From assembly GCA_028753945.1 (NCBI GenBank), contig JAPNXP010000004.1:3472001-3536000 (forward strand): a stretch of DNA of 64,000 nucleotides, given 5' to 3'. This document shows positions 2,137-44,594 of the stretch, one piece after another. Position 1 is the stretch's first letter. The number at the start of each line of letters is the position of its first letter. The position numbers were made by a program, and so were the translations under genes. Source of the DNA: Hexactinellida sp. DTS-2022. Lineage: Eukaryota > Porifera > Hexactinellida. The notes under the pieces were generated by a model. It was not told the origin of the DNA. It ran no database searches and saw only the letters and a program-made list of their open reading frames with translations.

Positions 2137-5099
2137 ATGCCGAACAAATGTTCAGCTCCAGGATGCAAAGGAAACTACAGCTCTACTGATGGCTATGTGT
2201 CTGTATCCAAACTACCTACTGATCCTGAGCTAAGACACAAGTGGATAAGAGCGCTACATCTGGTAGATATTAACCAATACACATATGTATGTGAAAAACA
2301 TTTTCGTGAGGAAGACATTGCTCGATCCTACTCAGTACCATCTGGAACTAATGGTACACTTCAAGAAACTCCTCGCAAAGTACCAGTGCTTTGCAAAGGC
2401 GCCGTTCCTTGTTTTCTGCCTGGCTGCCCTAAGTATCTTTCAGCACCTGAATCATCTAAGTCATGTAAACGATTGAAAGTGGAGTTAAAAGAGGAGCAAT
2501 TCTTTGCTCAGGTTATACAAGAAAGTCAGAAAACATTCAAGATTGATGAAGAGAGATATGGTATAGCTACTTTGGATGACTTGAAACAAAAGCTTCATCT
2601 CATCTCTCTTAAAAACTGGCTACGTTGGTCTACCAATCAAGATTCAGTTCATTTTATACTTCCAAATATTCACAATTCTAAGATCACAGTCGAAGCCACC
2701 CTTTCGATTAATTTCAATCTAGGTACCAAAGCATTTTACCATTACGAACCAATTGCTATATCCCTCAATTGTTTGACAGATATACGTCAAATTGAAATCC
2801 TTTTGATTGAATGTAACTCCTCTGTGAGTGATATTTGTCAATCAGATCCTGTACGATATCACGTTAATTCAGCGAGGAAACACATTATTGAAGCAATCGA
2901 TCAAATTGAGAAATATAATCGTGAGACAGAGTCAGGGTTGGAGTTCATAAACCAAGAGCATGTATCTGTTTCTACGTACCTTCCTCGACTACAATTCGTT
3001 TTATGTCAGATTGAGAATGTTATGGTTCCCAAAAATAGGCGCAGATACAACATATTGACCCAGGTATGTCAATTGATAACTTTTACTATACTGTACTTAT
3101 AGTTTATACTCATTTTGTATTTAGATTTTGTCCCTCAAGGCCCATATCTATTCTCACTCTTGTTACAGTTATTTACAGTCCCTTGACTGTTTATCTCTTC
3201 GACATTTTCACACCTTACAGAAATTATACGATCCAATTGGATTAGAAAGTGAATACTTGATTTTCCTAGAAAATGCGACAAGAGAATTCTCTGAACAGCA
3301 AAAGAATGTTATTGTGCAAATAGATGAATTCCATGTCAAATCAGATATTTCGTATAAAGGTGGTAAAATTATTGCACCTACATTGAACATGGAGGATCCT
3401 ATAAAGACGGTATTAGCAATTATGCTTTCGAGTCTTCATAAAAAATGGTCAACAATTGTTCGTCTAGTCCCCCTTTCTTCTACCAAAGCATCAACACTAC
3501 ATCTCACTATAACATCTGTAATTGACGACATCGAAAAGTGGGGTCTCTTTGTTCAGGTACTTTGTACTGATAACTACCCCCAAAATGTTAATATATTTAA
3601 ACTGTTTTCTCCTGATAAAAAACTCTCTCCTATTGTTATCCTGTCGACCCTACTAGAAACCATTTCTTGTTTTTTGATCCTGTTCACATTTTGAAGTGTA
3701 TTCGGAATAATTGGCTTAATACGAAAGATTTCAATTACACTTTTATTTTTCCTAATTTTGGTGATATATCTACTGACTCCATGAAGTATCCTCTTACTCA
3801 ATGCAAGGCTTGTTTTGAAGACATACGAATACATTACAGACAAGAGCAACATTCTTTCGCCAAAATTGCTCATCCACTGACAGCTAAATCATGCTGGCCT
3901 TCTAGTTTTGAACGTCAAAATGTAGAACTTGCTCTCAAAATATTTAATGAGTCAACTAGTGCTGGTCTAAAAATTCAAGATAATTCACGAAACGACAACT
4001 CAAAAACGAAATCAGCAGAATTTATTTCTATTATAGTGAACTTGTGGAAAATATTTAATGTTAGTACACCTCAGAAGGGAACACGTTTGAATGAAGAATT
4101 TTCAAAACCACTTATAAGGGATGATCCTCGCTTCTCATTTTTACAGCGTATTGTATTTTGGATCGATGCTTGGGAAGCAACCACCAAAACAAATAAAGCA
4201 TCATTATCCCGCCAAACCTTCACTAGTTTGAGGCACTCATGCTTAGCCCTACCTCTTATAATTCGCCATCTAACTACCAATTGCGGATTTTCTTATGTTT
4301 TAACTACTTTTCTACAGAATGATCCGTTAGAACATCATTTTGGACTGTACAGACAGATGTCAGGAGCTAACTATCATATTTCCTATTGTCAAATACTTGA
4401 GTCTGAACGTCGACTGAAAGTTTCTAGCATATTAAAACTGTACCAATCGAGTACAGAGCAGATTTCTATTCAAGAGTTTATCAGTAAATTCTCAGAATGT
4501 CCAGATAGTGAACAAAGTCCTCCAAATGTATCATCTCAAGTCATAGAGGAATTGCATAACCAACACCTTTTATTAGAAACTATTGAGTACAATTCTCAAA
4601 CGCTGCAAGCATTAGCATTTATGGCTGGGTATACAGTACATCAATATTATAAGCGGTCCACTAAATGATCTGCATGTTTGAATTTTCTCACCATTGATAA
4701 AGAACTTTTGATAGAAGAACCCCAGGATTCAAGATATGCTTATTTGAAAATTGTAGACAGAGGCTCACTCAAATGGCCTTCAGATGTTATATTAGAATCA
4801 GTGGTTATTCTATGGAAAATCTTTGTTTCGATTGATAGCAACAAATCCCTTTTGTCAGTCCTAGCCCAAGGATCTTCTAAACAGATTTTGGTCTCTATAG
4901 GCATTAAATATGTAGAAAGTGAATATAGTGAAACCTGGAGAAATACATGTTCTTCTTGCAGTACTGTTTATTGGGATATTTTAAGACAATTGTTAGTGTA
5001 ATGGCGAACTGTCTTATATCAAACAAAATTAAAAATTACAATTCTCAGCTGGCTGCTCGTGGCGATTCACGCAAGGCAAAGAAATTTTCTCACCTTTAA
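2137..5099 (+). pseudogene. THAP/P-element-like transposase, copy A
   Basis: THAP9/P-element-like transposase, which binds transposon ends through an N-terminal THAP zinc finger and cuts with an RNase H-like DDE domain. The start MPNKCSAPGC shows the C2CH finger (C5, C10, C52, H55), with W36 and AVPCF after it. Exon 1 is 2137-3063; a 61-bp intron (3064-3124, gtatgt..ttag) joins in frame to exon 2. Candidate catalytic positions are D in IDEFHVK (3323), D in TDNYPQN (3569) and E in DPLEHHFG (4330). FDPVHILKCIRNNW marks the GTP-binding insertion. Breaks: a one-base loss near 3640, an in-frame TGA at 4666-4668 where copy B has a Cys codon, and a frameshift near 4996. After it the tail reads NYNSQLAARG.. 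to a stop at 5099. The order of motifs is intact but the gene cannot give a full protein. TIRs were not found. Confidence 0.8.
3064..3124 (+). other. Intron of copy A transposase
   Basis: The donor cag|gtatgt and acceptor ttag|attttg join phase-0 codons (..ILTQ|ILSLKAH..). Copy C has a 62-bp intron at the same codon (62573-62634). Copy B has continuous coding sequence there. Confidence 0.75.
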
Positions 5100-11725: not shown

Positions 11726-11828
11726 TTTTTAAATTGGAGCCTCTCAGCCTCCAGTTTTTTTTCAACACTTTGTGAGTTTCCCGTCCGGGTATTCTAGAAT
11801 TCCGTGCTTCAGCCAATGTATATATATA

Positions 11829-12548
11829 CAGTAATACCTCGTTTTACGCATTTTTTTTTACGCGTTTTCGTTTACGCGGAACAATTATTTATGACCAAAA
11901 CTTTTTTTACGCGATCCTCGACTCGTTTTACGCGGTTTATCTATGATTTTCATACAATTAATTCTCTTTTTTATGGATATTTTCGATAATTTTTAAGATT
12001 TTTCCAAAAAAACAAAAATGATGATTTAGAGATAGTAGATAGTTAGGGATATGTATTTGTCGTATAGTAAGTTCATCCAAATATATTATTGGTCAAATGA
12101 ATACATATTTGCTTCACTATTCACACTAGAGATACCCGGTTGTGGGAGGTACCCGGAGGTGTAGGGTTGCGGTGTGAAGGGAATTTAATTCCCTTCACAA
12201 CACAATTCCCTTTCTGTGGGAATTCCCAAGTATTCTCACAAGTTGGTTTCTATCAGGATTCCCATAGGTTAAAATAATTTCCATTCAAAACGATATTGGA
12301 AATCCTATGGGAATTCCCATGGGATTAACATACACACGGAAACCTTGGCTATCTGAGAGGTCCGGATGTTGGATTTGTAGTGTTTAAACACTAGGTATTT
12401 AAAATTTTATTCGATGTTTATAATATTTGGAAACGCATCTATTGGTTTAATATGTGTTACTATGAGAATGAACCGTTTTTTTTACGCGATTTCGTTTTAC
12501 GCGGGCTTTTCAAGGAACGCATCTATCGCGTAAAAAGAGGGATACCTG
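11829..12548. mobile_element. pogo/Tc1-like non-autonomous element (tacgcg family)
   Basis: 720 bp between TA duplications (11827-11828 and 12549-12550). Left end CAGTAATACCTCGTTTTACG; right end CGCGTAAAAAGAGGGATACCTG. Both subterminal regions repeat 'tttacgcg'. The middle (about 12130-12360) holds an unrelated patch rich in gggaattccc inverted motifs, possibly a nested insertion. It abuts the left TIR of the Ginger element starting at 12551. Confidence 0.7.
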
Positions 12549-12550
12549 TA

Positions 12551-12720
12551 TGTTGCAGTGTGTTAGAGATTTTCGGGTGTTCGCGTACACACGGATTAAT
12601 TAACGGGTGTACGCGTACACACTAAAGTTTATGGTGTGTACGCGACACACGAGATAAATTTAGTGTATTAGAAATAGCAATATCATATGGGTCACCAATA
12701 ATATCACATTTGAGTAATTA
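12551..12720 (+). repeat. Left TIR of the Ginger/GIN element
   Basis: TGTTGCAGTGTGTTAGAG.. followed by three CGTACAC-type palindromic blocks (ttcgcgtacacacgg, gtgtacgcgtacacac, gtgtgtacgcgacac), then ATAAATTTAGTGTATTAGAA and ccaataatatcacatt. It matches 28838-29004 inverted over its full length. Confidence 0.8.
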
Positions 12721-13207
12721 ATTAATTAATATTCATTTCTAATACGATAAATACGTAATCATCATCATCATGTCAGCTGTTGGTGTTTTTGATCTTTTGA
12801 AGTTCGCGAAACGTTTCCATGTACGTCTGTTGGGATGACGCTAGATTCTTCTGATCCTCCTCAAATATTTAAATGTTGAAGTTGAAAGCATTATTCATAT
12901 TTTCGACATTCTACTCTCAAAGAATGGACTTGGCAAAACATAATTTTATAAACTCTCTATCGAATCTACCCTCTACAAATCGCTCCGAGTTGTACACGAA
13001 GGAAGAAATTACTCAAAAGATTGAATTAATTTCGGGACCCGTGCCTTCAGATAGAGCGGGAAGAATTCGCATGCAGAGACTACATTTGCGATTCAAGATA
13101 GTGCCATGTCAAGGGGCCATATCTGAGGAGGAGTGAAGGTGAGCATAGCCAAGATAAGCGTGTACTGTCGATTGAAGAACTAAATCTATATTATTAAATC
13201 TCGATTG

Positions 13208-13242
13208 TTGTGTGTGTGTGTGTGTTTGTTTGTTTGTTTGTC
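13208..13242 (+). repeat. (GT)n(GTTT)n microsatellite
   Basis: gtgtgtgtgtgt followed by gtttgtttgtttgt, at the start of the Helitron-like copy. The same tract is shorter at 43731. Confidence 0.9.
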
Positions 13243-13316
13243 CGGATTGTATTGAAGTGATGGGGGACTAGAAACCGCATTTATAATTGAGATAGAGACT
13301 AAGTTCCAAATGTTAT

Positions 13317-13880
13317 AATTGGTAAACAAATGTTATAATTGGTAAACAAGTATGCTGAACACGAATTTCGCATTTACAAATTTATGATATGAATATTTAT
13401 TTTTGTTGTTTACACAAAATAGGTAAACAAATTTATGAAAATTCAAAAATAACCTAGAAGTTAGCTTTCAACGGCTATTATTGGTAAACAAGTATGCTAA
13501 ACACGAATTTCGCATTTATAAATTTATAATATAAATATTTGTTGTTGTTGTTGACACAAAATAGGTAAACAAATTTATGAAAATTCAAAATCAACCTGGA
13601 AGTTAGGTTTCAACGGGTATTATAGGTAAACAAGTGTGCTTAACACGAATTTCGCGTTTATAAATTTCTAATATGAATAATTGTTGTTGTTGTTTACAGA
13701 AAATAGGTAAACAAATTAGTGAAAATTCTAATCAAACCAAAAGTTAGCTTTCAACGGGTATTATTGGTAAACAAGGATGCTGAACACGATTTTCGCGTTC
13801 AAAAATTTATAATATGAATATTTGTTGTTGTTGTTGTTGTTTACACAAATAGGTAAACACATTAATGAAAATTCAAAATC
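13317..13880 (+). repeat. Tandem ~150-bp units in Helitron-like copy 1
   Basis: About four units, each with ggtaaacaag(t)atgct.aacacgaatttcgc, aatatgaatatttgttgttgttg, tttacacaaaataggtaaac and tgaaaattcaaaat.aacct.gaagttag. Fixed spacing is not enough for CRISPR; the units are diverged minisatellite copies. Confidence 0.85.
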
Positions 13881-13897
13881 ATAACGTCCCTTGCTAC

Positions 13898-14064
13898 CAT
13901 AGGCGTCGTAAACCGCCCGGGTGCCCGGAAATGTCAGGGCGGGCCGAAGGGATTGTCCCCATGCTACTAACACTATACTCCGAGTTTACCCGGAGTTTAC
14001 CCGGACATTACCCGGAATTTCCGGGCGGCCCGATGGATTGACCTTTGCATTTACGACGCCTATG
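13898..14064 (+). mobile_element. hAT-type MITE, CATAGGCGTCG family, copy 1
   Basis: TIR CATAGGCGTCGTAAA..TTTACGACGCCTATG, GC-rich inside (ccgcccgg, tttacccgga). The 8-bp duplication CTTGCTAC is at 13890-13897 and 14065-14072. The sister Helitron copy is uninterrupted here (ccctttcttccatt), which confirms the boundaries. Confidence 0.9.
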
Positions 14065-14397
14065 CTTGCTACCATTTCCCATGGTAGAAAGTGTGAGGAG
14101 TAAGGCCGCACAGCGGCCGTTAACTTGAGGTGCGTAGCACCGATCTGTCGCAATGCGACCGAGACCGAAGGGCTCGTGATGTTATAAAACGTGTACATTT
14201 GGAACATAACCACGTTAGGAGAGATGGTTTGCATAAAGATGGTACAGGAGTATCACGGCATAACAGAGAAAGCTTGTGTTTTTATTCTTAGCAGTTGTGA
14301 AGAACATCACCTTCGAAAAGCCAATAAATCGGGAAAATCTTTAGTCGTCAAGCCAATTTCATCCACAAGATTTATCTCCAGGTGCCAAGTCGATTTG

Positions 14398-14776
14398 TAG
14401 TCGGGTCAAAATATGAAGCAAATACCCCAAACCCCAAAAAATTGCAAGAAATTGTTTTATTACATTTTTCCATAGTATCATGTATGGGGAATAACATACT
14501 AAAAGTCTAGCGAAATCGGGAAACCAAAAGTGAAAAAAAGTGGTCCAAAATTTGGTGCTCGGTCGAAAATCACCGGTTTTGTGTATCAAATTTTCCATTA
14601 AAAACAACCCATTGTTGTCATATTCGTACTCAGCATCAAATTTCCGGCAATTTGATATATATATTTGACCTTTTTTTTCTTGAATCCTCCCTAACAACGG
14701 CCTGGTAATGGAAAATTTATTATCTCCATTTGGTAGAAACCATATCGAGTGACCCCTTGTTTTTCACGGCTGGGGG
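14398..14776 (+). repeat. Left TIR of the Academ-like element
   Basis: TAGTCGGGTCAA.., aaaaaattgcaag, tgtatggggaataacatact, gtctagcgaaatcggg, gttgtcatattcgt, aaaccatatcgagtgacccc. All recur inverted at ~22575-23111. Confidence 0.8.
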
Positions 14777-15397
14777 TATGTTAAATTCTTAATTAAATGG
14801 AAATAAATAATAAAACGTTTTATTTTGTATTGTTTTTCCCATGTTGTCTTGAAAATTATTTCCAAATAATTTACTAACATTTATATTAACATATTATATA
14901 TTGATATGAGCGCGAGCCAAGAAATTTTCCCTTTGTGTGAGAATGAGGTGGAAGGATACACAAGAGTGGTCATTGGTGAGAAAGGAGCAGTAGGGAACAA
15001 CAGGGCAAGCATTGAGAGTGGTGACACCATCGTGGTAATTGCGGGGATAGGCGTTCACAAGTTTTGTCGGAAAAATTATGTCAACAACACATACATCGAG
15101 TTATATAATAAGAATGCCAATCTAAGACCACCAAAACAATTAAAAAGAAGTGCACGTGTTTCCTCAGGACCATATGATAGTAAGATAGACTCTGTTCTGT
15201 GGAAATGTAGTAGTGAAGAGCACTATTAGTGCGAATTATGACAATTTTAGCTATGTCAAAACTGATTCATTCGTGCAGTAGATTTTCTCACATTATAAAC
15301 AACGAAATGATGAATGGGTCTTTACTGTGCTAGGGCAAATCGAGTACTTTCGGAGAGACATGCGTGCTGCTGATAGTTTGTACCATCGTTCATGTGA

Positions 15398-16004
15398 CAG
15401 GGTTGGGTTCAATTATAATTGTAATTACTTCAATTACAATTAATTACGTTTTTGAAATAATTGTAATTGTAATTGAAAAACACTAATCGCTATAATTGTA
15501 ATTGTATTTGAAATACACAAATTCCTATAATTGTAATTGTAATTATAAAGCACCAATCCATTTTGGAAATTTTGATTGTAATAATTTGTCTTTAAAGCAG
15601 ACCGAAAAATTGTCGATTACACGTTTTCTAGTGTTATTTATTAATAAAATTATTAGACACCAGTATGGCTTGGCTTGACATTTTTGCTAGACTTCTAATA
15701 AGGGGATGATTTTACATGAATAAATGGCTTCTCTTTGTATTCATGAGGGTATATACGTAAATATTGAGCACTCAACCATCTACTTGCTCATAGGATTGGG
15801 TTCAATTATAATTGTAATTATTTACTTTTTTGACATAATTGTAATTGTAACTGTAATTGAAAAACACATAAGTATAATTGTAATTGTAATTGTAATTGGA
15901 AAACACAAATCCTTATACTTGTAATTGTAATTGTAGTTGAAATTCTAAGGATAGCGTAATTGTAATTGTAATTGCAATTAAAATTATAATTGAACCCAAC
16001 CCTG
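15398..16004. mobile_element. hAT-type element filled with TAATTG repeats
   Basis: 607 bp. The TIR CAGGGTTGGGTTCAATTATA is answered by TATAATTGAACCCAACCCTG. A perfect 8-bp duplication TCATGTGA lies at 15390-15397 and 16005-16012. Most of the element is runs of attgtaattgtaattg. It interrupts the Academ-like coding sequence (SLYHRSC|..HFRTIRD). Confidence 0.9.
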
Positions 16005-17315
16005 TCATGTGACATACATTTTCGAACAATCCGGGATATTCCTATACAGCACAAAGCAGAAGACCCTATTCACAGGAAACAAAGGAAGATTGGGAGGCCA
16101 AAGGACAGTGACCAAGATCAAGCCTTCCGATTATTGTGCTCCTTTGAGGAAAATGATGAAGAAAAATTGACAATCACCTGTCTTGCGAGTAAGATGAAGG
16201 AGTATCTGAAAGAACCAGATTGTGTCGCCTATGATATTCAGTATCTGAAGTCGAGACTGTTGAAACATTATGGGGAGTCTACGTATATTCATTGCCGAGG
16301 GTGAAGGGTTGCCTGATATTGTAACATTCCGCGAGAAGACTATTCAAATCCTGAGAGAATACTTCAGCTTACCAATAGTGGATGATGAGGAATCCCAGAA
16401 GAGACTCATCATAGAGACTGCAGCTTGACTTGTCAAGAGTGATTGATATGTACCCTGGGGACAAGACATGTGTTTTCTCAACACTTGAGTATCTGTGCAA
16501 GCTTTCTTTCGAGCACAAAAGCCCAGCAATTAATCACCGACAAGCCTGCATTTGAAAACCTATTGCAGAAAATAGAGAAGTTATATACTAAAACATTGAT
16601 GGGCGAGTTTGATTTCAATTCACTCATCCAATCCGAGTGCTTAAAGGAAACGACCCGCGTGTTGTCCACCAAAACACATGAACTATCCGCTCGATCTGAA
16701 ACTAGCAATCTGTGGCTAAGTTATAAGCAAAAGGTAGGAGTTGCCCGGGAGCTGATTGGAGCAGATCGGTCTGTTTACCCATATTTGCAGCAGCTGGACA
16801 TGCAAATTATCTGAAAACTGCCTACCTCTACCTCCAGGCCATGAATGAACTAGAAAACGAAAACCCGTCTGTATTCCATAAGTTCTCGAATGGCTTCCAC
16901 GTAATCAGACGTAGTGACCAGTATTGGGCAGGCCTCGGTTGCGATCTGGGTATCGAGTAATCTCTTATGCGGTCGATTAAAAGTATAGGGGGCCACTCGA
17001 GGAAGCGGAATGACCGAACATCAGCGAGCTCTCTGGACTATGTCTTCACATGTGTTAGCAAACTACAATGATGCATAGCCTACTCTATAAAAGCCAGACA
17101 GTAAAGTTGAAATATAGTACCAGGGATGCAGTAGTAAGTGGGCATTTATAACCAACCATAATTATTAGCAATCTTTGTTTCATTAATTGTTCACATGCCT
17201 ATCTTTATAATTATACTAGTATTATATACGCGCATAATACATATTTTTATCTCGTTCCCTACTATAATTAGTCTTTTGGGTTCCTAACTATTAGATACTA
17301 TTTTTTACGTTCAAG

Positions 17316-20165
17316 ATGCCGAACAGTTGTTTAGCTCCGGGCTGCCAGAGTAACTACTACGAGTCAGACGACCGAGTTATCGTTTTCAAAATGCCAACAA
17401 ATCACCTGAACTGAAACAAGCTTGGATCCGGGTCTACGTCGTGATGATATTGCTGACATGAAGGTAGTGCGAGTGTGCAATTAAACATTTCAGGGAAGAA
17501 AACATAGAAGCGACGCATAAAGTACCCAAGGAGACGGAACGTTCACAGAAGTACCTCGTGACAGGCCTAAGTTGAAAGAAGGCGCTGTTCCATGTTTGCT
17601 GCCTGGATGTCCATCTTATTATTCAACAACATCGAAAACGAAGCGGACTCGCTTGTCATACGACTCAAAGGAAGAGGAATTGCTGAATAAAACCATACAG
17701 ATGAGTTTGATTGCTGAGACAGAGGAAACATATAAGTATAAGATCAATACTTACAGGATCTAAAAGATAAGTTGACTCTCGTTTCTTTACCTAATAATTG
17801 GTTAGTATGGTACCGTGATAATCTTGCCACATTTATTCTCCCCAGTCTATAGAACGGAATATATCAGTCGACCTCTATCTTGACTTTAATTGTTTTCTAT
17901 CCGCAAATGCTTTTGCGAATGGACAAAATATTTTTATTTCTGCCAACTCAATAACTGATATCCGAGAAATTGAATCAATTCTTTGCGAAATATCTTCGAA
18001 ATACACCTCTAAGTATATTAACAACTGTCATGAATATCATATACATCGAGCCAAAGAACACATTATTGAGGCAATTTCTCATATAAACAAAATGGCGGGG
18101 TTGAAATACATTCTTCCGATATAGAAAAGCTTCAATTTATCATTTGTCAGTTAGAAAATAAACTTATCCCAAAAACAGACGAAGGTATAATGTAATTACA
18201 CAAATAATGGCTATTAAAACTCATCTCATATCTCCTGCTAGCTATAGATATCTTCAAGGTTTAGACTGTCTATCTCTACCACACGTTCATACATTGGAGA
18301 AGCTATATTCTTCTTTTGGTCTCGAGAATGATTTTGTGCATATCTTAGACAGGCTACTTCGTCATTTACTCCTCAGGAACGGAATGTAATTATTCAAATG
18401 GATGAGATACATGTCAAATCGGAAATATCTTACAAAGGTGGAAAGGTATATGGCCCAAACTTAAATCCTGAAGATCCAACGAGAACAGTTTTCGCAGTTA
18501 TGGTATCCAGTCTTCATAAAAAGTGGTCTTGTATTTCTCGTTTGCTACCATGCGCATCTATCTCTGCCGAAAAAATATTTCCTATCATAAAATTTTCCAT
18601 TATCGATATTGAGCATTGTGGTTTGAGCGTTCAAGTTATAGCAACTGATAACTACCCGTTGAACGTTAATCTCTTTAAATTGTTTTCTCTCAAAAATAAG
18701 CAGGAGATTAAAGTGCCTCACCCTGTTGACAATCACAGAATTCTATTCCTTACGTTTGACTTTGTTCATATATTGAAGAGTATTCGCAACAATTTTGCTA
18801 AATCAGAAAGATTTTGAGAAAACATTTCAATATCCAAATCTCGAAAATTTTGCAGTTGATTTTGCCAATATCCTCTTAAAGTCCATTCAGCTTGCTTCCA
18901 AGATATACGTCTTCTTTATAACTCGGAAAGTCAAAGTTTAGCTAAACTAGCCCCCCATCTTACCTTGAAAGCTTGTTTTCCTTCTGCTATAGAACGAGAA
19001 AATGTCAAATTGGTTCTGAAGGTCGTTAACGAATTAACACTAGCTGCTCTAAGAATTCGAGACGAATCTCGGTTACCTGAAAATCGTAAGAATACTTCTG
19101 ACTTCATATGTATCCTTCTTTCATTATGGAAAATATTCAACATCAATACACCGTTTAAGGGTATCCGTTTAAACGATAGCCTCTCGAACTCTTTGATCCT
19201 TAATGATGAAAGATTCTTATACTTGACTCGTTTAGCATTTTTGTTAGATGCTTGGGAAGCGTTACCTGGGAAACTAGGAAAATTGAGCAAACAAACATTT
19301 ACTAGTGTTAAGCACGCATGCAATGCACTACCCGAAATCACCAACCATTTAATTCAAAATTGTGGGTTTTCATACGTTCTATCTTCCTTTTTGCAAACAG
19401 ATCCGCTTGAACATCATTTTGGACTACATCGTATGATGTCGGGGTCGAATTACCATATATCTTATCTACAAATTCTAGAAACCGAACGTCGTCTCAAGCT
19501 ATCCACTGTCTTCAATATTTTTTCTCAGCAATCGTACTCTTCCTTATCCATTCAGACATTCGTCAAATCCTTTTCTACCCCAGATTTTAATAATCCTGAT
19601 CATGATGACTATATAATTTTAGATCCGTTCCTTGAAGATATAGGCGATTTATCATCCATCGAATTTAATACACAAATTCTTCAATCTTTAGCGTTATGCA
19701 GTCACAAATACTTGAAACATCACCAACCTTGTCATGTCTGCCTTGATACGTTGACATTTGATAAAGAGTTTCTATTCGATCTTGACTTTCCTTCGGAGTT
19801 TAAGCTCCTCCATTTAACAGATCGTGGTCGACTGAAGTATCCATCTGAACCGCTTCTTTCTGTTGTAATTATTCTGTGGAAAATATTCGTTCTAATTGAA
19901 AGTGATGACAACCTCTTGACTAAACTTGTAGAAGGTTCATCTAGAGAGATTCTTGTACAACTCACATTAATCTTCATAGGAGAAATTGGTGACAATGATG
20001 TTTGGAGATGTAAATGTGTTAATTTCGATACTTGTAGGTGGAAGATCGTGCGCCAACTTATATTTACTGCAGCAAATTGTATTATCGCAAATAAAATTAA
20101 AAGATTATAACTCATTAGTAAGTTCAAGAGCAATTGATAAGCGTAAATTAAAGAAGTTTTCATAG
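17316..20165 (+). pseudogene. THAP/P-element-like transposase, copy B (intron-less)
   Basis: The start MPNSCLAPGCQSNYYESDDR gives the THAP finger, followed by at least three frameshifts before 17570. AVPCLLPGCP ends the THAP region. From 18207 the frame is good: IKTHLISPASYRYLQ, MDEIHVKSEISYKGGK with the first Asp (18401), ATDNYPLNVN, FDFVHILKSIRNN, QTDPLEHHFGLHRMMSG with Glu at 19409, CHVCLDTLTFDKEF (intact CxxC where A has a TGA), and DRGRLKYPSEP. One extra A near 20105 shifts the end; the alternative frame gives DYNSLVSSRAI..KKFS ending 20165, parallel to copy A. At the intron site of A and C, copy B reads RRYNVITQIMAIKTHL without a gap. A dead copy, but the closest to intact over the catalytic half (381-codon ORF at 18965-20110). 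Confidence 0.8.
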
Positions 20166-20266
20166 ATTTGTTCAGACTAGTTTATTGTTGTTTGTTTTAG
20201 TTATTGTCCGCTCAGAAAGTCAAGTCCAAATGTCAGAGAGAGAAGATGGGAGTATGTTAGATTTAC

Positions 20267-20723
20267 CAGGGTTGTATCAACTCATTTTGAGTTGGCAAAA
20301 CAACTCATTTTTTGTCTACCAACTCATTCAACTCATTCATTTTGCTGTTACCAACTCATTCAACTCATTCAAGAAAATGAGTTGATTCTGCCAACTCATT
20401 TTTTATTAAACTAATTGTAACTAACGTATATCTTAAATCTTCAGTTTAATAATACATTTACAGCTGCGTCGGTCGGCTCTCAAAAGTGATCCGGCCAAAT
20501 TTGGATCTCCCTACGCATTAATGTTACGACAAAGTAAAAGTTGTCTGGCCATGGTCGGAAGTAGGGTTGTATCAACTCATTTTTTGTCTACCAACTCATT
20601 CAACTCATTCATTTTTCTGTTACCAACTCATTCAACTCGTTCATTTTGCTGTCACCAACTCATTCAACTCATTCAAGAAAATGAGTTGATTCTGCCAACT
20701 CAAAATGAGTTGATACAACCCTG
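20267..20723. mobile_element. hAT-type element, CAACTCATT family, copy 1
   Basis: 457 bp. TIR CAGGGTTGTATCAACTCATT..AATGAGTTGATACAACCCTG with 8-bp duplication AGATTTAC (20259-20266, 20724-20731). Filled with accaactcattcaactcattc repeats. Nested in the 3' part of copy B. Peptides predicted inside are repeat artefacts. Confidence 0.9.
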
Positions 20724-21573
20724 AGATTTACATTGGACAATTGTAGATGATCGTGTGTGTCGTTCTAATTTGTAATTGTTGATTTTGTGTTTGTATTTAT
20801 ACTATGATTAAAATACGCGGATAGAGTTTCTCATAGTTTCTCAATAAGGGGTAAATAATATCAGTTATGTCTATAGAGAAACATAACTTAAATTACAATA
20901 TTGTTATAATGTAATATAGAAAAAGTCCACTTACTACTTCATCCCTGGTACTTTTACTGTCTGGCCTTTTATAGAGTATGCTCTTCATTGGGAGTAAGAA
21001 GGATTTCCTTTCCAATCAAGTCAACAAACAGGCCCTCATCTGTCTCATTTCTGAACGTATGAGGAAAAGAGGTGGCCACGTCATACAAGCTGAGGGAGAT
21101 GCCGATGTTACTATTGTGAAGGCAGCAGTATCAATGACATCCTTCAAAACAACAACTCTTGTTGCACTGCACATTTAACAACAATGCAAATAAGATTTAT
21201 TTCCGCTCTGATAAAGGGATACCAACAGTAGTGTATGACATAAGGGTCATAAAGCAGATGCTTGGAGTCAACATCTGCCAAAGTCTGCTGTTTCTTCACG
21301 CATTCACCGGATGTGACACAACCTCCAGCATTTTTGGGCTCGGGAAAAGTCTGCATTACACAAAATGATGAAAGAAGATTCCGTCTTTTAAAGCTACGCT
21401 AGGGTATTTCCTACACCAAAGCAAGACCCTCTGTGATAGTAAGCACTGGTTGCAAATCCATGATTGCATTGTTCAATGCAAAGCCCGGTGACAGTCTTCG
21501 TGACTTGAGATATAATATCCTCTGCAAGAAAGTTTGCGGCCTAAAGCTTCGTGACACCAGAAAGGCTGCCACC

Positions 21574-22098
21574 CAAGGGTGTAGCCAGGGGAGCGCCATT
21601 GCGCCCCCACTTTGTTCCCATGCGCCCCTTGAGGCGCCCCCACTTGGAATTGGGATAGATCAATAGATTCAATAGATATGTTTTTGATATTAAATAAATA
21701 ATATGACACATTTACAATTTGAACTTGTAACCATAAATATATTGGAAACTTTGCAAGTTTCATGTAAGGTATTAAATATTCAGTGATATAATTTCATAAT
21801 TATTGTCTCTATTGCCTATTGGTGTGAAGCTATAAAAATTTTGTGATAGTGGAACAATGTTTGCATTGCAAACATTGTTCCACTATCATAAAATTTTAAT
21901 GAATGATTATTCATTGATTGCCAACTTTGCAATCAATGAATAATCATTATTACATTGTGAAATGATATGAAGTGATAATCCATCAGAGCCTAAAAGAACG
22001 AGCCCGGGATGTAAAATATACTATGTTAAACAATATAAGAAATGCGCCATCAGTTAATGTTGTGCGCTCCCAGTTCAAAAACTCTAGCTACGCCCCTG
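21574..22098. mobile_element. hAT-type element with internal hairpins
   Basis: 525 bp. Ends CAAGGGTGTAGCCAGGGG and CTAGCTACGCCCCTG; duplication CTGCCACC/CTGCCACT (7 of 8). It splits DTRKAAT|AATTVSATKF of the Academ-like protein. It contains gcgccccc blocks and two long hairpins at 21836-21948. Confidence 0.8.
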
Positions 22099-22574
22099 CT
22101 GCCACTACTGTTTCTGCAACGAAATTTCACTCTCTGAGGAATTATCTCCTGGTCATGTTGTGGAAGGACATGGCTGACGGTATCGAGGTCACCGAATCCG
22201 AATGGGGATGGGACTGCCAAGGTAACAGCCTAATCCCAGTCATGATGGACACTAATCCTGCACCCGAAGCAATTTTGAAAATGATACACTATAACTGTTC
22301 TACCGGCTGTAGTACACACAAGTGTAGCTGCAGGAAACAAGGACTTAACTGTTCTCATGTATGTGGACGATGCCAAGAACACAACTGTGACAACATGGGT
22401 GAGTGTGTAGCATCATGTCACATTTCTTCTTTATCATAATCTGATGCATCAGATGATGATAATGAAGAAATGTGACAGTATCTATCTGCTAAGTCTCCAG
22501 GCGTAAACTATAATATTTCAAAATTAAACCGTTAGAGTATTTATATTAGCTAATTCGTACTCGGTAAACATAGC

Positions 22575-23111
22575 CGAGGGTAACAAGGGGTCACTCGATA
22601 TGGTTTCTACCAAATTTCGAGATCAGGAATTTTCACATTCCTGCCCGTTGCTATGGGTTCCCATACAAAATTCTCCCAATATGGTTAAAATATATATCAA
22701 GTTGTCGGAAATTTGATGCTGAGCACGAATATGACAACAATGAGTTGTTTTAAATGCAATTTAAATGGCTAACGTGGATACACAATCCAGCGATTTTCGA
22801 CCGGACACCAACTTTTGTACCCCATTTTTTTCACTTCTGGTGTCCGATTTCGCTAGACTTTAGTATGTTATTCCCCATACATGGTTCTACGGAAAAATCC
22901 AATAAAACAATTCTTGCAATTTTTTGAGGTCATACAGCACAGGGTTTCATCCAGTCGTTTGGAAGGATAATATTCTAGGCGCGCGAAAATCGTGAGATGG
23001 ACGTAATTCAAATTGAGTATTTTAGGCGCGTATGAGCGAGCTCAAACTTGATCTAGGCGCTTAGAAAATTTTGGCTGGATGAAAGCCTGATACAGCATAT
23101 TGACCCGACTA
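22575..23111 (-). repeat. Right TIR of the Academ-like element
   Basis: Inverted match of 14398-14776 with the same landmark blocks, interrupted by the MITE at 22940-23089. The outer end TTGACCCGACTA meets the TTG duplication. Confidence 0.8.
22940..23089. mobile_element. hAT-type MITE in right TIR
   Basis: 150 bp. TIR CAGGGTTTCATCCAG..CTGGATGAAAGCCTG with perfect duplication ATACAGCA (22932-22939, 23090-23097). Internal taggcgcg motif repeated. Confidence 0.9.
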
Positions 23112-23483
23112 TTGATTGATTTTCGAGATATGTCCGAGTAACACAACATGTCAGATTCTGGTATCCCTTTAAGTGGCTCTTGGTTTACCAGGACCATTAC
23201 ACCAAATACCTTATCATTTTGCCTCTGAATACAAGTCTGCTGCAGAAGTAGCAAACATCCTTGAAGAAATCTTCTGCGACATCGGCCCACCTCATATTCG
23301 CCAGTCAGATAATGGGGGTGAATTCTGTAATTATACTTTATTATCATTAATTGATGAAAAGGGCCTTCTACAAAGATCATCCACGGCAAGCCTCGCCATC
23401 CAGAAATCCAAGGATCAATAGAGCGTGCGAATAGAGAGATTAAAAATGCTCTAGGGTCAAAGATGAGGAATAGTCCTAATTGT

Positions 23484-23720
23484 TAACGGAGACTACGACG
23501 ATGGGAAACTGTAGACTAGTAGCGTACATAACCTACTAGTTGGGTTTCGTTCCATTACAGGAACTCATTAGGAGGGTGACCCTCGACCCCATGACTCCAC
23601 TCACGCCTGTGGGTGGTCACGCTTCCTTATTGCCACGGTGTCTCCATCACGACACTCGTGCCTCCTGCCGGGTGTGTCTCCATAACAACACTATCCCGAC
23701 CCCGATACTACACTAATGAT
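23484..23720. mobile_element. 237-bp insertion of unknown type in GIN gene
   Basis: Non-coding sequence between integrase blocks (..KMRNSPN and WVKYLKR..). TTGT flanks both sides (23480-23483, 23721-23724). Inside, ggtgtctccatcacgacact is partly repeated as gtgtctccataacaacact. A loosely tRNA-like A/B box pair (tagtagcgtac, ggtttcgttcc) hints at a SINE but is weak. The frames on the two sides do not match exactly. Confidence 0.4.
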
Positions 23721-24653
23721 TTGTGCTGGGTCAAATACTTGAAGCGTGTACAGTTCGAAAGAAATACAACATTTCATTCTACTATTGGGATGACGCCTTG
23801 CGAGGCTCTATATCACCATAAACCATCCTTCGGCCTTTCTGATATCGGACTTCCTGAAGAATGTGCTTCTGACATTCGTACAGAAGAAGACTTAGAAGCT
23901 CTCATTGAAGAAATTAATGCTCCTATAAACAACCTACTTCCCAGTGCAATCCCGACTCATAGTGATATATCACCCATTTACACGTTCTAAGTTTTCAACA
24001 AATAACAGCGAAGTCGAGGTTGATTCTATTCAGTCACCAGTGCTAGATTCATGTCTACATGATATTTCACAACCCATTCTTGATGAAACTCATATCTTCG
24101 TAACTAATTCCTCTCCTGGCACATTGAACTGCGTAGTTTGTAATTACAAACAAGCGGTGTCCATTCTTGTCCAGGTTGTAATAGATTCGTCCATGTCTAT
24201 TGTAGTAGGACCGAAGGGGAAGAAGGTTTCGGATCCCCTGTTTGGTGTGCCAAATGTGACCTTGAAAATGTAACCAAACATTCAAATAATGTGAGATCTG
24301 GGATCAAGAGAAAACAGGAGAAACTACACGATTGTATCATTTCATCTGCAGCTAAAAAATTTCAACCAGCTGCTGTCGGCGATAATGTAGTCGTCCCTTT
24401 TGAAAGGCCTGATAAAATGCATTCTCTTAGCCCACGAAATATACTAGCTGTAGTTACAGATATTTCGGAAGACATCTACACCATTGGCACGAGAGATGGC
24501 ACACTAAATACAAATTACACAAGAAATCAGTTCGAAGTCTGCTCCTCTAATACGTTTATTCAGACTTCGAATGTCCCATAAGCCATAATTTCTCAAACTT
24601 CTGCAATGCGAAAGGCTTCATTCAGGAATTGAGAATAATTCTTTTTGCAGATG

Positions 24654-25987
24654 CAGGGACTTCTTTAATATACAGGGCCGTAGCCACTGGTCAGGTTGGT
24701 CAGGTTTCAACCTGACCACTTTTAGTTGGTTGGACAGGTTAACATGAACCCTTGGCCCTGTTGGTACTGTATCCAGCCCGGTCTAACCTGACCACTTTTA
24801 ATTGGTGGCTACGGCACTGATATAGGACTGTAAACTTTGTTTTACGGTAAAATTAGCGTAGGCCTAAAACAGTATTGTTACTTATTGATATCTCGTAATC
24901 CGCTAATGCTAGACACAGGAAATGTATTATTGTCGTATACGAAGTCATATTTTGGGAGTCCAACGGTCATATTGGTTAATCGAAAATATTTTCGGAATGT
25001 AAGTTATGCGATTTTCACACCCTTCCATATATGGTAATATTGTTAAAATCTCGAGATTACTTAAATTTATGCATATGAAATGTATCATTTTCGTACAGGA
25101 AATCATATTTTGGCAGTCCAACGGTCATATTGGTTTATCGAAAATATTTGTGGAATGTAAGTTATGCGATTCTCACACCTTTCCATATATGATAATATTG
25201 TTAAAATCTCGAGATTAGTTAGTTTTATACATATAAAATTTATTATTGGCGAATGGGAAATGGGAATTCATATTTAGGGACTCAGTAGATCACATTGATT
25301 TACCTAAGGCGTTCCCTTAGCCAAATTATTATTTTGGCACTCTCCACAGGAGGATTGCCGACCCTGTTTTGTAGTTTAGCTAATTCTTACCTATCAGATA
25401 TTTGTCATTATGTTCCTCCTGTCAAAACCTCCTCTAATCCTGCTGTGGAGAGTGCCAAAATAATAATATAGGCTAAGAGAACGCCTTAGGTAAATCAATG
25501 TGATCTACTGAGTCCCTAAATATGAATTTCTATTTCCCATTCGCCAATAATAAATTTCATATGTATAAAACTAACTAATCTCGTGATTTTAACAAAATTA
25601 CCATATATAGAAAGGTGTGAGAATCGCATAACTTACATTCCACAAATATTTTCGATAAACCAATATGACCGTTGGACTCCCAAAATATGATTTCCTGTAC
25701 GAAAATGTACATTTCATATGTATAAAGTTAAGTAATCTCGAGATTTTAACAATATTACCATATATGGATGGGTGTAAAAATCGCATAACTTACATTCCAC
25801 AAATATTTTCGATAAACCAATATGTCCGTTGGACTCCCAAAATATGACTTCCTATACGACAATAATACATTTCCTGTGTCTAGCATTAGCGGATTACGAG
25901 ATATCAATAAGTAACAATACTGTTTTAGGCCTACGCTAATTTTACCGTAAAACGAAGTTTACAGTCCCTATATTAAAGAAGTCCCTG
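24654..25987. mobile_element. Foldback element, ~1.33 kb
   Basis: Near-complete palindrome with ends CAGGGACTTCTTTAATATA and its complement. Arms run 24654-~25366 (including a nested MITE) and ~25437-25987, with a loop of about 70 bp. Each arm carries two ~180-bp direct units (tccaacggtcatattgg, atcgaaaatattt, ggaatgtaagttatgcgat, cttccatatatg). Flanks gcagatg/acagatg suggest a 7-8 bp duplication. It is inserted in the last Cys-rich codons of the GIN integrase (gcag|..|agatgtaagcattg). Short ORFs in the arms mirror each other and are not genes. Confidence 0.8.
24674..24822. mobile_element. MITE nested in left foldback arm
   Basis: TIR CAGGGCCGTAGCCAC..GTGGCTACGGCACTG. The right arm is uninterrupted at the matching site (ttaatatagggactg), which fixes the insertion. 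The apparent duplication is ATATA (5 bp). Internal aacctgaccacttttagttgg is repeated. Confidence 0.75.
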
Positions 25988-26107
25988 ACAGATGTAAGCA
26001 TTGTAAGATAACAACATGTCCATGCAAGAAGTTATCCAGAAGCTGTGGCACTAAATGCCACAAAGGTATAATATGCTTCAACAAGTAAATTATCGATTAG
26101 TCGTTGG

Positions 26108-26426
26108 CAGGGGCGGCGCCAGCACAGCCCCAGTGGGGGGGCGAAAGGGGGGCGGACCAATGCACTGGAGGGGCAAACCCAATAGTTGTAAACATTCCAA
26201 AATTCACATTCAAACCAAAATCGATATTTTTAATGACAAACTTGGTTAAATAATCTGTCCTATAATAGTGTACGGTGGTGCAAAACGGCAAATTATGAAC
26301 TCCCTGTCCAGGGCATTTAGCATTTCCGCATTAACATTAAGTACTCCTATAACAGACAAGCGAGTTCCCGCCCCCCCCACAGGGGGGGCGGCCGCCCCCC
26401 CGCGCCCCCCCCTCGCGCCGCCACTG
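26108..26426. mobile_element. hAT-type MITE, GC-rich ends
   Basis: 319 bp. CAGGGGCGGCGCCAGC..GCGCCGCCACTG with perfect duplication GTCGTTGG (26100-26107, 26427-26434). It lies 19 bp after the GIN stop codon. Confidence 0.9.
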
Positions 26427-26990
26427 GTCGTTGGATAACTTTCCATTAATTTTAGTAGGATGAAATTTCAACTATCTATTGACAGTATCGTGTAGTAACC
26501 AGTATCGAATTTTTGCCTATTAATTCAATCGATATTAATCTAATAATTTGAGAAATACATACGTAACAATTTTATATTCAGTTCAACAGGATGAATTAGA
26601 AAGTATTCATTAAACAAACAGAAAATATATCAAATCTTACACTTAGGTAATGTACTAAATTAATAGAGTCCACCTACACCACCGTTTTCCGTTAAAGATC
26701 GGCCGTTAGGATAAATTAAATAATTGTTGCTATTATAACGTTTCAGTATGATGTCGTTAAATTAGGTAAATGTTGGAAAAGTGAAATTCGTATTAGTGGA
26801 ATAATGTGTCTAGCAGTAGTAAACCTTCTTGTCCAGATCATTCTGCCACCACAACCTGTATTATTTTCTTCAACCCAGTTAATTAGTAAGTGGTTGATGC
26901 TGTCACAAAATATTAGTTCAGGTGTCACAAGTTTTGGCCCTAAGCAACTAATCTCCCAAAGCCAAATTAGTGCGATAAGTATTATACATA

Positions 26991-27106
26991 CAGTATACTC
27001 CCGTTATAATCAAGTCGGATATAGCGAAGTACCTGCTTATAACAAACTCCGCTTATAACGAAATGAAACTATGGTTCCAAGCATTCGTTATAACGGGAGT
27101 TGACTG
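26991..27106. mobile_element. pogo/Tc1-like MITE, CCCGTTATAA family
   Basis: 116 bp. CAGTATACTCCCGTTATAA..TTATAACGGGAGTTGACTG between TA dinucleotides. gcttataac motif repeated inside. The stretch 26435-26990 holds nothing recognisable. Confidence 0.85.
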
Positions 27107-27231
27107 TACTATATATTTTGCATTTAGTACAATGTGTCAAACGTGTTTTGTGGTTATACGCAGTGACCTGCAACATTAATATTCAGGTAGTATTTAAAGT
27201 ACACTTAAATTTGTTTGAATATGCTATAATT

Positions 27232-27404
27232 CAGTGGTTCTCAACCTGGGGACCGCAAGCCAAAGGGGTCAAAGAATGATTTTAAGGGTTCCGCCGCGTA
27301 ACCTATCACGATAATAGTATCATATAATTAGTACATGTTTTGGTTCGCAGAAGATTTTTTACTACTACCAGGGGTCCGTAATATTTAAATGTTGAGAACC
27401 ACCG
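27232..27404. mobile_element. hAT-Charlie-like MITE
   Basis: 173 bp. CAGTGGTTCTCAACCTGGGG..GTTGAGAACCACCG. Flanks CTATAATT/CTCTAATT match at 7 of 8 bases. The end sequence resembles Charlie/MER5-type termini. Confidence 0.8.
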
Positions 27405-27867
27405 CTCTAATTGAGGAGTTTGAAGAATACATTTCCAAATTTTTGTAGCCATTTTGGGATCGCAGATTTGTTTGCTCCAACCTGCCTATCCGTAATGGCA
27501 CAATGGTATATTACTAGTTGCTACTAATTACAAATTAGAGTGAAACTTGCTCATAAAGGGCACCCAAGGTACTGGATAAAAATGATCATAACGACGGTTA
27601 TGTATAGATTACCGCTATGTGCAAACGACCATTATCCAAGATTCTAATATCCATAACACAAATCTTGTTTTTTTTATTTTTTATTTGAGACTAACTTCTA
27701 ATTTATAATATGAATATTGAGTGTTGCTGTTTACAAGGGGGCTATAGCCCCCCTACTTTTGAAATAGGGGGGCTCAGCCCCCTACTTTCCCCCTCATATA
27801 CATTATACTAATTTAAATAATACTAGTAAAGAACATTTCAGTAACTATCTGCGTTAGTGAGTGTCAC

Positions 27868-28271
27868 GAGAGGAGTAGCTATGGGCGGTTCAGGCGGTTC
27901 ATTGAACCAGGGCCCTCGATGTCTCGGGGGCCCCCAAAGGCATACATATCAACCTATTTGAGTCATATTCCTGTACAGGGCTCAAATTTTCCCCTGTACA
28001 TTGGCCAAATCCCTGTACACCTCCCAAAAATTTTTCTCGCTCGCTGCGCTCGCTCTTCCAGGGAATTTCTATACACTTTTACGTATATAAAAATTATCAC
28101 TTTGGAAAGGAGAAAGCATAGAATTATATACTGTATAGGGAATCTCTGTACGGTTGGCAGGTATGCTGAAAGGTTCCAAAATTATCCATATGCAGATATC
28201 AGATATACTTCAATCATACTTCGTCAAATTGCGTTTGAACCGGGGCCCCCGAAACCTTACCTACGCCACTG
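27868..28271. mobile_element. hAT-type element with GGGGGCCCC ends
   Basis: Right end GGTTTCGGGGGCCCC (read inverted) to CTACGCCACTG; the left end GAGAGGAGTAGCTATGG is a decayed version. Perfect 8-bp duplication AGTGTCAC (27860-27867, 28272-28279). It hosts a nested CCCTGTAC element. Confidence 0.75.
27941..28165. mobile_element. CCCTGTAC-repeat element, copy 1
   Basis: Left end catacatatcaacc and right end GGTTGGCAGGTATG; internal ccctgtaca repeated. Flanks cccaaagg/ctgaaagg match at 6 of 8. Same family as 41123-41950. Confidence 0.7.
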
Positions 28272-28837
28272 AGTGTCACCAGCCACTTGATATTCAATTT
28301 GGTATTATTTGTTGATGTTGTTTTCTCAATACTTTATTTATTTGGATAATGACTTAGATATCTGGAAATGACTTGAAAATTGATTCAAATTATTTTATGT
28401 TGTTTTTTGAATTTATTTACGATTTGTTATTTATTTGAATGATCTGAGAAATTAATTGAATATTGAAATTTTGTAATATCACTTCATTCACCATGAAACT
28501 ATAATATGGCAAAGAAATGTCAGTCCTCGCTATGATCTTGGAATATTTATTATTTAAACAATTGTAAATACATTGATATACTTAATGTAGCAAATACTTA
28601 TTTCGAATACTAATTGTGATTTTGTGGCCAATCGTAGGATTTACAATACTCATAGAGTCATAGTCATAGAGTATATATGTCGACCAAATATTTCGTTCTC
28701 CTATTTGAAGGTGGACATAGTTACACAGGTTAGCCCCCCTAGTTTTTATTAGCTTCCGCCGCCACTGGATGTTTACAAATATAGGTAAATAAATTAATGG
28801 ATATCAAAATGGACCTAGAAACTTACTACAAGCTGCT

Positions 28838-29004
28838 AACTCTAATGTGATATTATTGGTGACGCATATGATATTGTTAATTCTAATACACTAAATTTAT
28901 CTCGTGTGTACGCGTACAAACTATAAACTTTAGTGTGTACGCGTACACCCTTTAATTATTCAGTGTGTACGCATACACCCGAAAATCTCTAACACACTGC
29001 AACA
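28838..29004 (-). repeat. Right TIR of the Ginger/GIN element
   Basis: Inverted match of 12551-12720, ending ctctaacacactgcaaca. Includes gtgtacgcgtac blocks and ctaatacactaaatttat. Confidence 0.8.
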
Positions 29005-29696
29005 TATACACTCAATCTATAAACTGAATACACACGGTATCAATTCGTTGTGCATATTTTATCCAGGTGTGTGGGTCACAACAATAAATCGTGAAAATAT
29101 GCACAAAGATTGAAATTGTATTGCTGCTAAGAGTTATTGAGTTGAAACTTTCAGGGTAGACGCATATACTATCCTACTGTTTAGAAACGCAATAAAATCA
29201 ACGAATAACCACCAGTGAGGAGATTTAGATGACACAAGAGGGTCCTTAATAGTCAAAAAGAAAATCATATCTTAGACTCTGTCAAGAAGAATTAGAGTAT
29301 ACAAACTATGAGAAACCCAGTTACTAAAATTGGCATATACATGTATATGTAGTTATCATAATGAATCTCAAACTTTACATTAGGGGTACATAACAAATTC
29401 CCCTTCCTGAAATTCCTGGTCCAATAAAATTTGCTGAGTGAGCATGTCTTATTTTAGTTTATTTCTGATTGAAGATACTTATACTACTTGTAAATATAGC
29501 CTCAAAGCGGATATGAAAACTACAAAATTGAAATCAAGACCTGAAATAAAACAATTTATTTGAAAGAAATTATATTATTAGTTATTTAAAATATGGGGAA
29601 ACTTTCTTCGTTACCGTTAATTAAGTTAGTTATCTCCTCCAGTATAGAAGCTTGTATTATTGAACAGAAGAGTTTACTAAGCAAGCTGCTGCAAAA
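29005..29696. other. Non-coding stretch
   Basis: No ORF or repeat that I can support. Confidence 0.3.
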
Positions 29697-34937: not shown

Positions 34938-35437
34938 CAGGGTTGTATCAACTCATTTTGAGTTGGCAAAACAACTCATTTTTTGTCTACCAACTCATTC
35001 AAATTTCCTTCACCAACTCAATCAACTCATTCATTTTGCTGTTACCAACTCATTCAACTCATTCAAGAAAATGAGTTGATTCTGCCGACTCATTTCTATT
35101 AAACTAACTGTAACTAACGTATATCTTAAATCTTCAGTTTACTAATACATTTACATCTGCGTAGGTCGGCTCTCAAAAGTGATCCGGCCAAATTTAGATC
35201 CCTACGCATTAATGTTACGAAAAAGTGAAAGTTGTCTGGCCATGGTCGGAAGTAGGGTTGTATCAACCCATTTTGAGTTGACAAAACAACTCATTTTTTG
35301 TCTACCAACTCATTCAACTCATTCATTTTGCTGTCACCAACTCATTCAACTCATTCATTTTGCTGGCACCAACTCATTCAACTCATTCAAGAAAATGAGT
35401 TGATTCTGCCAACTCAAAATGAGTTGATACAACCCTG
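34938..35437. mobile_element. hAT-type element, CAACTCATT family, copy 2
   Basis: 500 bp with CAGGGTTG..CAACCCTG ends and perfect duplication GGGTGCAG (34930-34937, 35438-35445). By eye identical to 41409-41908. Confidence 0.92.
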
Positions 35438-43310: not shown

Positions 43311-43706
43311 TACATGATTGTCATTGTATACCTTGATACCAAGTTCCTATACAGTTATTGTACCTTATAACGTCTATCATTACAAGTTATGGAGATCAAT
43401 TTAAATAACCTATTTATCAATGAACTTTAAGTAATCCATGGTCCCGAAAAATATACTCAGTGGTATGGCATTATATATAGAACTTATAATAGAAGGTCAC
43501 GTGTAATATTATTTGAAAATGGCAGGAGTGTTGCGATCGAAAGAATCTCGATAGATAATTTTCTAGAATAATTACCCCACAAAATAACCGAGTAATTCGC
43601 GTTTTTCTTAAGGGTCTAAATATTTAGAGCCCGCATTAGGCACTATGTGTGTACCCTGCTACTACAATATCCTGGCGAGAATCCTGGTCAGATTAGGCAC
43701 TGTATA

Positions 43707-44441: not shown

Positions 44442-44594
44442 TTTATAATTAATTTATTATTATTCACAGTGAATTTTTAAGTCAAACAAGTTCCTTTTAA
44501 ATTATTTTACTTGCTTTAATCCATTGTACTGAAATACTAAAATCAATAGAAGTCTCCACGTATTCACAAGTGGAATTAATATAATTACTAGCGA

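Follow-up and report, generated by a model that had tools for sequence, protein, structure and literature searches.

Results

The window analysed here is a 64,000-nucleotide stretch of the genome of Hexactinellida sp. DTS-2022 (contig JAPNXP010000004.1; C13:3472001–3536000), and the genome searched for related copies comprised 112.4 Mb in 18 contigs. Its central feature is a DNA transposon, assigned below to Ginger2, which is interrupted by other transposons that are themselves interrupted in turn (Table 1). At least seven element classes occur at the locus, as had been proposed in an earlier reading of the sequence (the original prediction). The arrangement is very probably best explained by a Ginger2 element that carried two passengers and then received about eleven insertions, one of them a composite assembled beforehand.

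Table 1. Elements at the Ginger2 locus, in window coordinates. TIR, terminal inverted repeat; MITE, miniature inverted-repeat transposable element; LTR, long terminal repeat. Empty site, number of Ginger2 loci continuous across the insertion point.
Feature	Position	Strand	Characteristics
TA-type element	11829..12548	.	in left target duplication of Ginger2; TA both sides
Ginger2-type DNA transposon, outermost	12551..29004	+	16,454 bp, own sequence ~3,798 bp; TIRs, TGTTG...CAACA; six further two-TIR copies
Left TIR	12551..12715	+	
Right TIR	28839..29004	-	
Helitron-type element, 142-bp tandem units	13185..14176	+	inserted between A and T; empty site 8/11
hAT-type MITE inside Helitron	13898..14064	.	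duplication CTTGCTAC
Academ-like element, internally deleted	14398..23111	+	duplication TTG; empty site 8/11
hAT-type MITE inside Academ-like element	15398..16004	.	duplication TCATGTGA
P element inside Academ-like element	17074..20980	+	96.5% to L061
hAT-type MITE inside P, fourth layer	20267..20723	.	457 bp; exact duplication AGATTTAC
hAT-type MITE inside Academ-like element	21573..22097	.	duplication GCTGCCAC; missing from L060, sole other copy covering site
LTR-like element, probable solo LTR	23481..23712	+	TG...CA; duplication CTAAT; empty site 8/11
Large palindromic element, CAGGGACTTC...	24654..25987	.	imperfect duplication 6/7; empty site 7/11; further copy in L039
147-bp MITE inside palindromic element	24673..24819	.	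5-bp duplication ATATA
hAT-type MITE	26108..26426	.	duplication GTCGTTGG; empty site 7/11
TA-type MITE, Ginger2 passenger	26991..27106	.	in 7/8 loci searched, not L031
hAT-type MITE, Ginger2 passenger	27232..27404	.	duplication 7/8; in 8/8 loci searched
hAT-type element I6	27734..28767	.	duplication GCTGTTTA/GATGTTTA, 7/8; empty site 8/11
hAT-type element inside I6	27868..28271	.	duplication AGTGTCAC; also in other I6 copies
CATAC... element inside 27868 element	27941..28165	.	flanks agree 6/8 bases

The outer element

Inverted repeats at 12549–12715 and 28839–29006 align over 168 nt with 93% identity, the outermost 30 bases being identical. They enclose an integrase coding region divided into five blocks (12551–13184, 14177–14397, 23115–23480, 23718–24653 and 25995–26107), in agreement with the predicted ~170-bp repeats at 12551 and 29004 around a five-block integrase gene. 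Among the best 40 of 59 candidates, a left-TIR query returned at least 20 close matches (91–100%), two of which lie in the window itself and some of which are partial, together with a second set about 75% alike. When uninterrupted copies with the same TIRs were sought, both TIRs were found facing each other around the same integrase at six other places: one each on C5 (4.8 kb), C1 (5.7 kb), C11 (5.1 kb) and C17 (12.8 kb) and two on C3 (3.7 and 3.5 kb). Five of the six measure 3.5–5.7 kb, against 16.5 kb in the window. The outcome named beforehand as refuting the original prediction, uninterrupted copies whose repeats do not flank the integrase gene, is therefore not what was found.

Two frames of the copy at L033 matched the integrase core (rve, E = 1.2e-8) and a SCAND3-type zinc finger (PF23663, 6.1e-10) in Pfam; these frames contain an H2C2 finger and the DDE residues and neither of the YPYY and GPY/F motifs. 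The best NCBIfam model for the integrase was IS481, at 64 bits and below its cut-off of 224, and the best structure match in the PDB was foamy-virus integrase (E = 2.1e-12). This resemblance to retroviral integrases is as expected for Ginger. Four frames scanned in other copies gave integrase and zinc-finger matches and one weak helix-turn-helix match only, with no reverse transcriptase; the domain scans as a whole covered frames of L030, L033, L060 and L061 and separate window fragments. Because its ends are inverted and the four frames hold no reverse transcriptase, the outer element is taken to be a DNA transposon; an LTR retrotransposon or provirus, with LTRs as direct repeats and a reverse transcriptase, does not fit these features. 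The features of Ginger1 (a CCGG or CCGT duplication, YPYY, GPY/F) were not found, and by its ends, its target duplication and the lack of both motifs we assign the element to Ginger2 rather than Ginger1. Of the predicted label, Ginger/GIN, the first half is kept and the second dropped. The integrase family is large in this genome (102 matches, many listed with long, putative open frames). At L030 the open frame measures 640 amino acids in the match listing versus 216 in a separate count of open reading frames.

A 4-bp target duplication is exact in four of the six other full copies (ACTA, TTAA, TAGA and TATA), and the full RTATAY site occurs in some copies only. In the window copy the left flank reads TGTA and the right flank TATA. 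The left duplication contains the TA-type element, which is presumably pogo/Tigger-like and whose insertion context is ...TATATATA. If this element is read as having inserted there afterwards, TATA is restored on both sides of Ginger2. Its left end was shared by 39 other listed matches (best 40 of 148), none starting beyond the TA and 25 starting within two bases; of the 39 other listed matches to its right end (best 40 of 159), 27 stop precisely at the TA and the others no more than 8 bases from it. For the right flank of Ginger2, only the self-match was among the matches listed, left-flank matches filling the listing.

Insertions directly in Ginger2

At six insertion points the 80-base flanks were joined and aligned to 11 Ginger2 loci, representing ten places, with L034 and L035 being the two halves of a single element. 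Seven or eight loci spanned each empty site (Table 1); for I6 the count includes L033 and L037, whose alignments extend for just 30 and 22 bases on one side. Read-through was seen at every locus with a match to a junction; the remaining loci gave no match, and six mismatched flank pairs used as controls were each spanned by 0 of 11 loci. Read-through at the Helitron-type and Academ-like junctions, the latter given as gatTTG/attgat, had been predicted and is borne out. At the former, predicted as ctaaa/tgatgtt, the junction stands, although the left-hand bases ctaaa hold for the window whereas three other Ginger2 copies read ctata. The Academ-like insertion point lies one codon past the codon of the first catalytic aspartate of the integrase.

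Helitrons insert between A and T without a duplication, beginning with TC and ending with CTRR. The element at 13185–14176 shows the A/T site and the 5′ TC; its 3′ end reads CTCG, as in a second window copy of the family that shares the 142-bp units (43703–44442); the copy around L030 ends in CTAG. Of 1690 first-look candidates for the 3′ end, 40 were scored. The Helitron copies in L067 and L069 lack the MITE at 13898–14064, and so does the second copy in the window. Over 73 bp the 142-bp unit is ~80% alike to part of the Ginger2 3′ end at 27700. This part had been predicted to be a Helitron unit, but other Ginger2 copies run through it without a break, and it is sequence of the Ginger2 family. 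Either the Helitron unit (13327–13893) or the Ginger2 3′ end (27700–28838) may have captured sequence from the other.

The LTR-like element has at least 40 other matches at 76–98% (best 40 of 81 candidates). Of three other copies compared for a target duplication, L053 has flanks that agree at 4/5 bases, and the flanks of L054 and L055 do not agree. Solo LTRs have TG...CA ends and a 4–6-bp duplication, and an internal region is found between two LTRs elsewhere; the element is probably a solo LTR. The 147-bp MITE within the palindromic element is missing from the L039 copy of its host and occurs at a different site, with a 5-bp duplication, in L029. Exact 8-bp duplications flank six hAT-type inserts (CTTGCTAC, TCATGTGA, AGATTTAC, GCTGCCAC, GTCGTTGG and AGTGTCAC), whose ends vary. 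hAT-type MITEs characteristically have such duplications and CAG...CTG-like ends, and the label is assigned here by these two features.

The MITEs at 26991 and 27232 differ from these inserts in being present in 7/8 and 8/8 of the Ginger2 loci searched, and both are therefore regarded as carried by the family; the second is broken near its left side in some loci. Nesting also occurs in the reverse direction. The Ginger2 copy on C1 (L030) lies inside a MITE that lies inside a Helitron, and the copy on C17 lies inside an I6 element, the opposite of the window arrangement. Ginger2 and two other families are thus found inside one another, in both directions.

The main stack

Academ elements make 3–4-bp duplications and encode an XPG-type nuclease, though not in every lineage. 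The duplications of the window copy (TTG) and of its relative L060 (GCA), which has a 1475-amino-acid open frame, fit the first of these features. No XPG domain was matched in the L060 protein by Pfam at E ≤ 1 (whole protein) or ≤ 10 (C-terminal part), the only Pfam matches being weak ones to DUF6589 (0.0019) and DUF6770 (0.043); NCBIfam and PHROGs gave no match and the PDB no usable one. The available passages of PMC10799480 and PMC10045372 hold no usable definition of Academ, and the superfamily name, given to 14398–23111 from the 3-bp duplication, is unproved.

Compared with L060, the window copy of the Academ-like element is missing ~761, ~286 and ~790 bp, and the P element lies at the third of these gaps. 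The MITE at 15398–16004 is missing from L060/L045 (one place) and from L047, and L046 has at that site ~570 bp of other sequence that gave no match. P elements encode a transposase with THAP and TNP RNase H domains and make 7–8-bp target duplications. Like them, the relative at L061 has THAP (4.3e-16) and TNP-like_RNaseH_N (1.4e-10) domains in Pfam and a 7-bp duplication, CCCGCAG; unlike them, the window copy is broken and without a duplication. Ten other P copies match exactly up to the point at which the MITE interrupts P, and no other match among those listed spans the junction of MITE and P (best 40 of 305 candidates). The same MITE has two further window copies (34938–35437 and 41406–41908, ~88%), and a second, distant P-like stretch at 3296–4418 is ~63% identical to P at 18374–19497.

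These comparisons support a four-layer stack in which a hAT-type MITE lies in P, P in the Academ-like element and the latter in Ginger2. This is the order originally predicted, with Ginger outermost; the predicted five levels are not reached, the deepest stack counting four.

The 3′ stack

A query across the I6/27868 junction gave through-matches at at least eight other places (81–95%) and a partial ninth; 20 listed places had I6 sequence only and 10 had sequence of the 27868 element only (best 40 of 120). Alignments continue through the 27941 element in all five fetched loci (L073–L077, of which L076 is the same place as L063), two of them over the whole length at 91%. At L063 an exact 8-bp duplication, ACGAAGAT, surrounds the whole composite. 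L064–L066 hold I6 without the inner elements, and L064 and L065 show a single AGTGTCAC site. The composite therefore also exists away from this locus and moved as one piece. To judge from these copies, I6 arrived at Ginger2 already carrying its two inner elements. In L063 ~24 bp are retained that the window composite lacks near its left end, which disfavours descent of all composites from the window copy.

The nesting predicted for this stack is accordingly retained, apart from the start of its outer element (27734 rather than 27736), and its use as a local chronology is not: because the composite recurs elsewhere, its inner order is not an order of local events.

Divergence of the window copies

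Substitutions private to the window were counted where a site had three or more other rows, and they give rough upper bounds on insertion age. They number 75/3148 in Ginger2 (2.4%, versus 0.2–2.1% for other copies), 74/1788 in the Academ-like element (4.1%), 20/1315 in P (1.5%), 4/225 in the LTR-like element (1.8%), 3/591 in I6 (0.5%) and 0/96 in the Helitron 3′ end. By this measure the Helitron and I6 look youngest.

Discussion

The proposed history begins with a Ginger2 element, already holding two small passengers, which would have inserted at an AT-rich site and duplicated TATA. A Helitron would then have entered it and taken up a MITE. An Academ-like element would likewise have entered Ginger2 and received two MITEs and a P element, the P element in turn receiving a MITE. 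The probable solo LTR, the large palindromic element and a hAT-type MITE would each have inserted in Ginger2, as would the I6 composite, with its two inner layers, as one pre-assembled unit. This amounts to about eleven insertions in Ginger2 and its inner elements, with the 147-bp MITE in the palindromic element perhaps a twelfth; the TA-type element would have landed in the left Ginger2 target duplication. The basis is the empty sites, the target duplications and the presence or absence of inserts in the other copies examined. We infer the relative timing of inserts not nested in each other, and decay without selection as the cause of the pile-up.

Several observations weigh against this history. 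The Ginger2 duplication is imperfect at L032 (3/4 bases) and L029 (2/4), and the Helitron flank used in the junction test carried 8 Helitron bases. P has no target duplication in the window, and next to it ~790 bp that L060 has are gone from its Academ-like host. Private changes are more frequent in the Academ-like element than in its Ginger2 host, so its divergence predates its insertion and its inserts could date from then; in that comparison two of the four rows (L060 and L045) are one place. The genome searches scored part of the candidates, which leaves absence elsewhere unproved.

The excess of private changes (74/1788 against 75/3148) is also what favours a main stack that arrived ready-made, with P and the MITEs in the Academ-like element before it entered Ginger2, and the I6 composite shows that whole stacks can move. 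This alternative is nevertheless unlikely: no P was found near another Academ-like copy among the listed places (P, 25 of 25; Academ-like, best 40 of 245), L060 is without P and the MITEs, and the window copy is internally deleted, though the enzyme of another copy could mobilise it. Because entry of P into the Academ-like element may have preceded the latter's entry into Ginger2, the local order of the main stack is unproved; arrival of its inserts here in nesting order, with those of the Academ-like element postdating its entry into Ginger2, is favoured. The opposite extreme, in which all layers, those of the 3′ stack included, inserted successively here as a five-level local chronology, follows the nesting order as first described, and no further instance of the main stack turned up among the places scored. 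It is very improbable given the recurrence of the 3′ junction at eight or more other places and a partial one, complete in 5/5 fetched loci, the duplication around the composite at L063, the 27700 unit in other Ginger2 copies and a deepest stack of four.

The region is highly repetitive, as would suit an assembly artefact joining unrelated repeats, and a join inside it had been named as a possible refutation of the nested reading. There are, however, no N characters in 11800–29400 and exact target duplications at 10/16 elements inside 12551–29004, which together make a join very unlikely; as empty sites elsewhere also match closely, an artefact is scarcely credible as an explanation of the locus. 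The heavy load (16.5 kb, against 3.5–5.7 kb in five other complete copies) might instead point to a functional transposon trap, for instance a small-RNA cluster with selection maintaining the inserts. We consider this highly doubtful, since the Ginger2, Academ-like and P genes share one orientation, which is not what a silencing cluster would need, and the C17 copy reaches 12.8 kb, so that chance suffices.

Stepwise loading of Ginger2, with I6 entering as a composite, leads to a more general proposal. Nested stacks in this genome are likely to move as units: by its first junction the three-layer I6 composite would have spread to nine or ten places, and Ginger2 with its two passengers, so that a load of transposons would not have prevented mobilisation, and counting layers would overestimate how many events took place locally. 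Transposon nesting as such is known, and the locus is a clear instance of an ordinary process. From it a nesting order can be read for Ginger2, an Academ-like element, P and a hAT-type MITE within one genome. It also serves as a worked example of separating local from inherited nesting, in which every junction is set against further copies of the element that hosts it; a nesting order needs such a check before it is read as local history.

Comparison with known systems

Ginger2/Tdd elements have TGTNR termini, TIRs of ~50–180 bp and a 4-bp duplication at an AT-rich RTATAY site, and they have an H2C2 finger and DDE core and, unlike Ginger1, which duplicates CCGG or CCGT, no YPYY or GPY/F, according to the passages available of Bao, Kapitonov and Jurka 2010 (PMC2836005). 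The window family resembles them in its TGTNR ends, 168-nt TIR, 4-bp AT-rich duplication, H2C2 finger and DDE residues. It also has short relatives of ~520 bp with similar ends: L041–L043 are 522–525 bp long, with Ginger2-like ends ~75% alike to the window TIR, and the TATA duplication is exact in L041 and L042, not in L043. It differs in encoding a SCAND3-type zinc finger 3′ of the integrase, of which these passages of PMC2836005 make no mention.

In transposition-in-transposition or interruption analysis, as far as the passages of PMC3014933 and PMC2517846 describe it, relative order is obtained from which element interrupts which, and the order given here was read in the same way. Unlike a plain interruption reading as set out in those passages, the present one must allow for a stack that was inherited as a unit.

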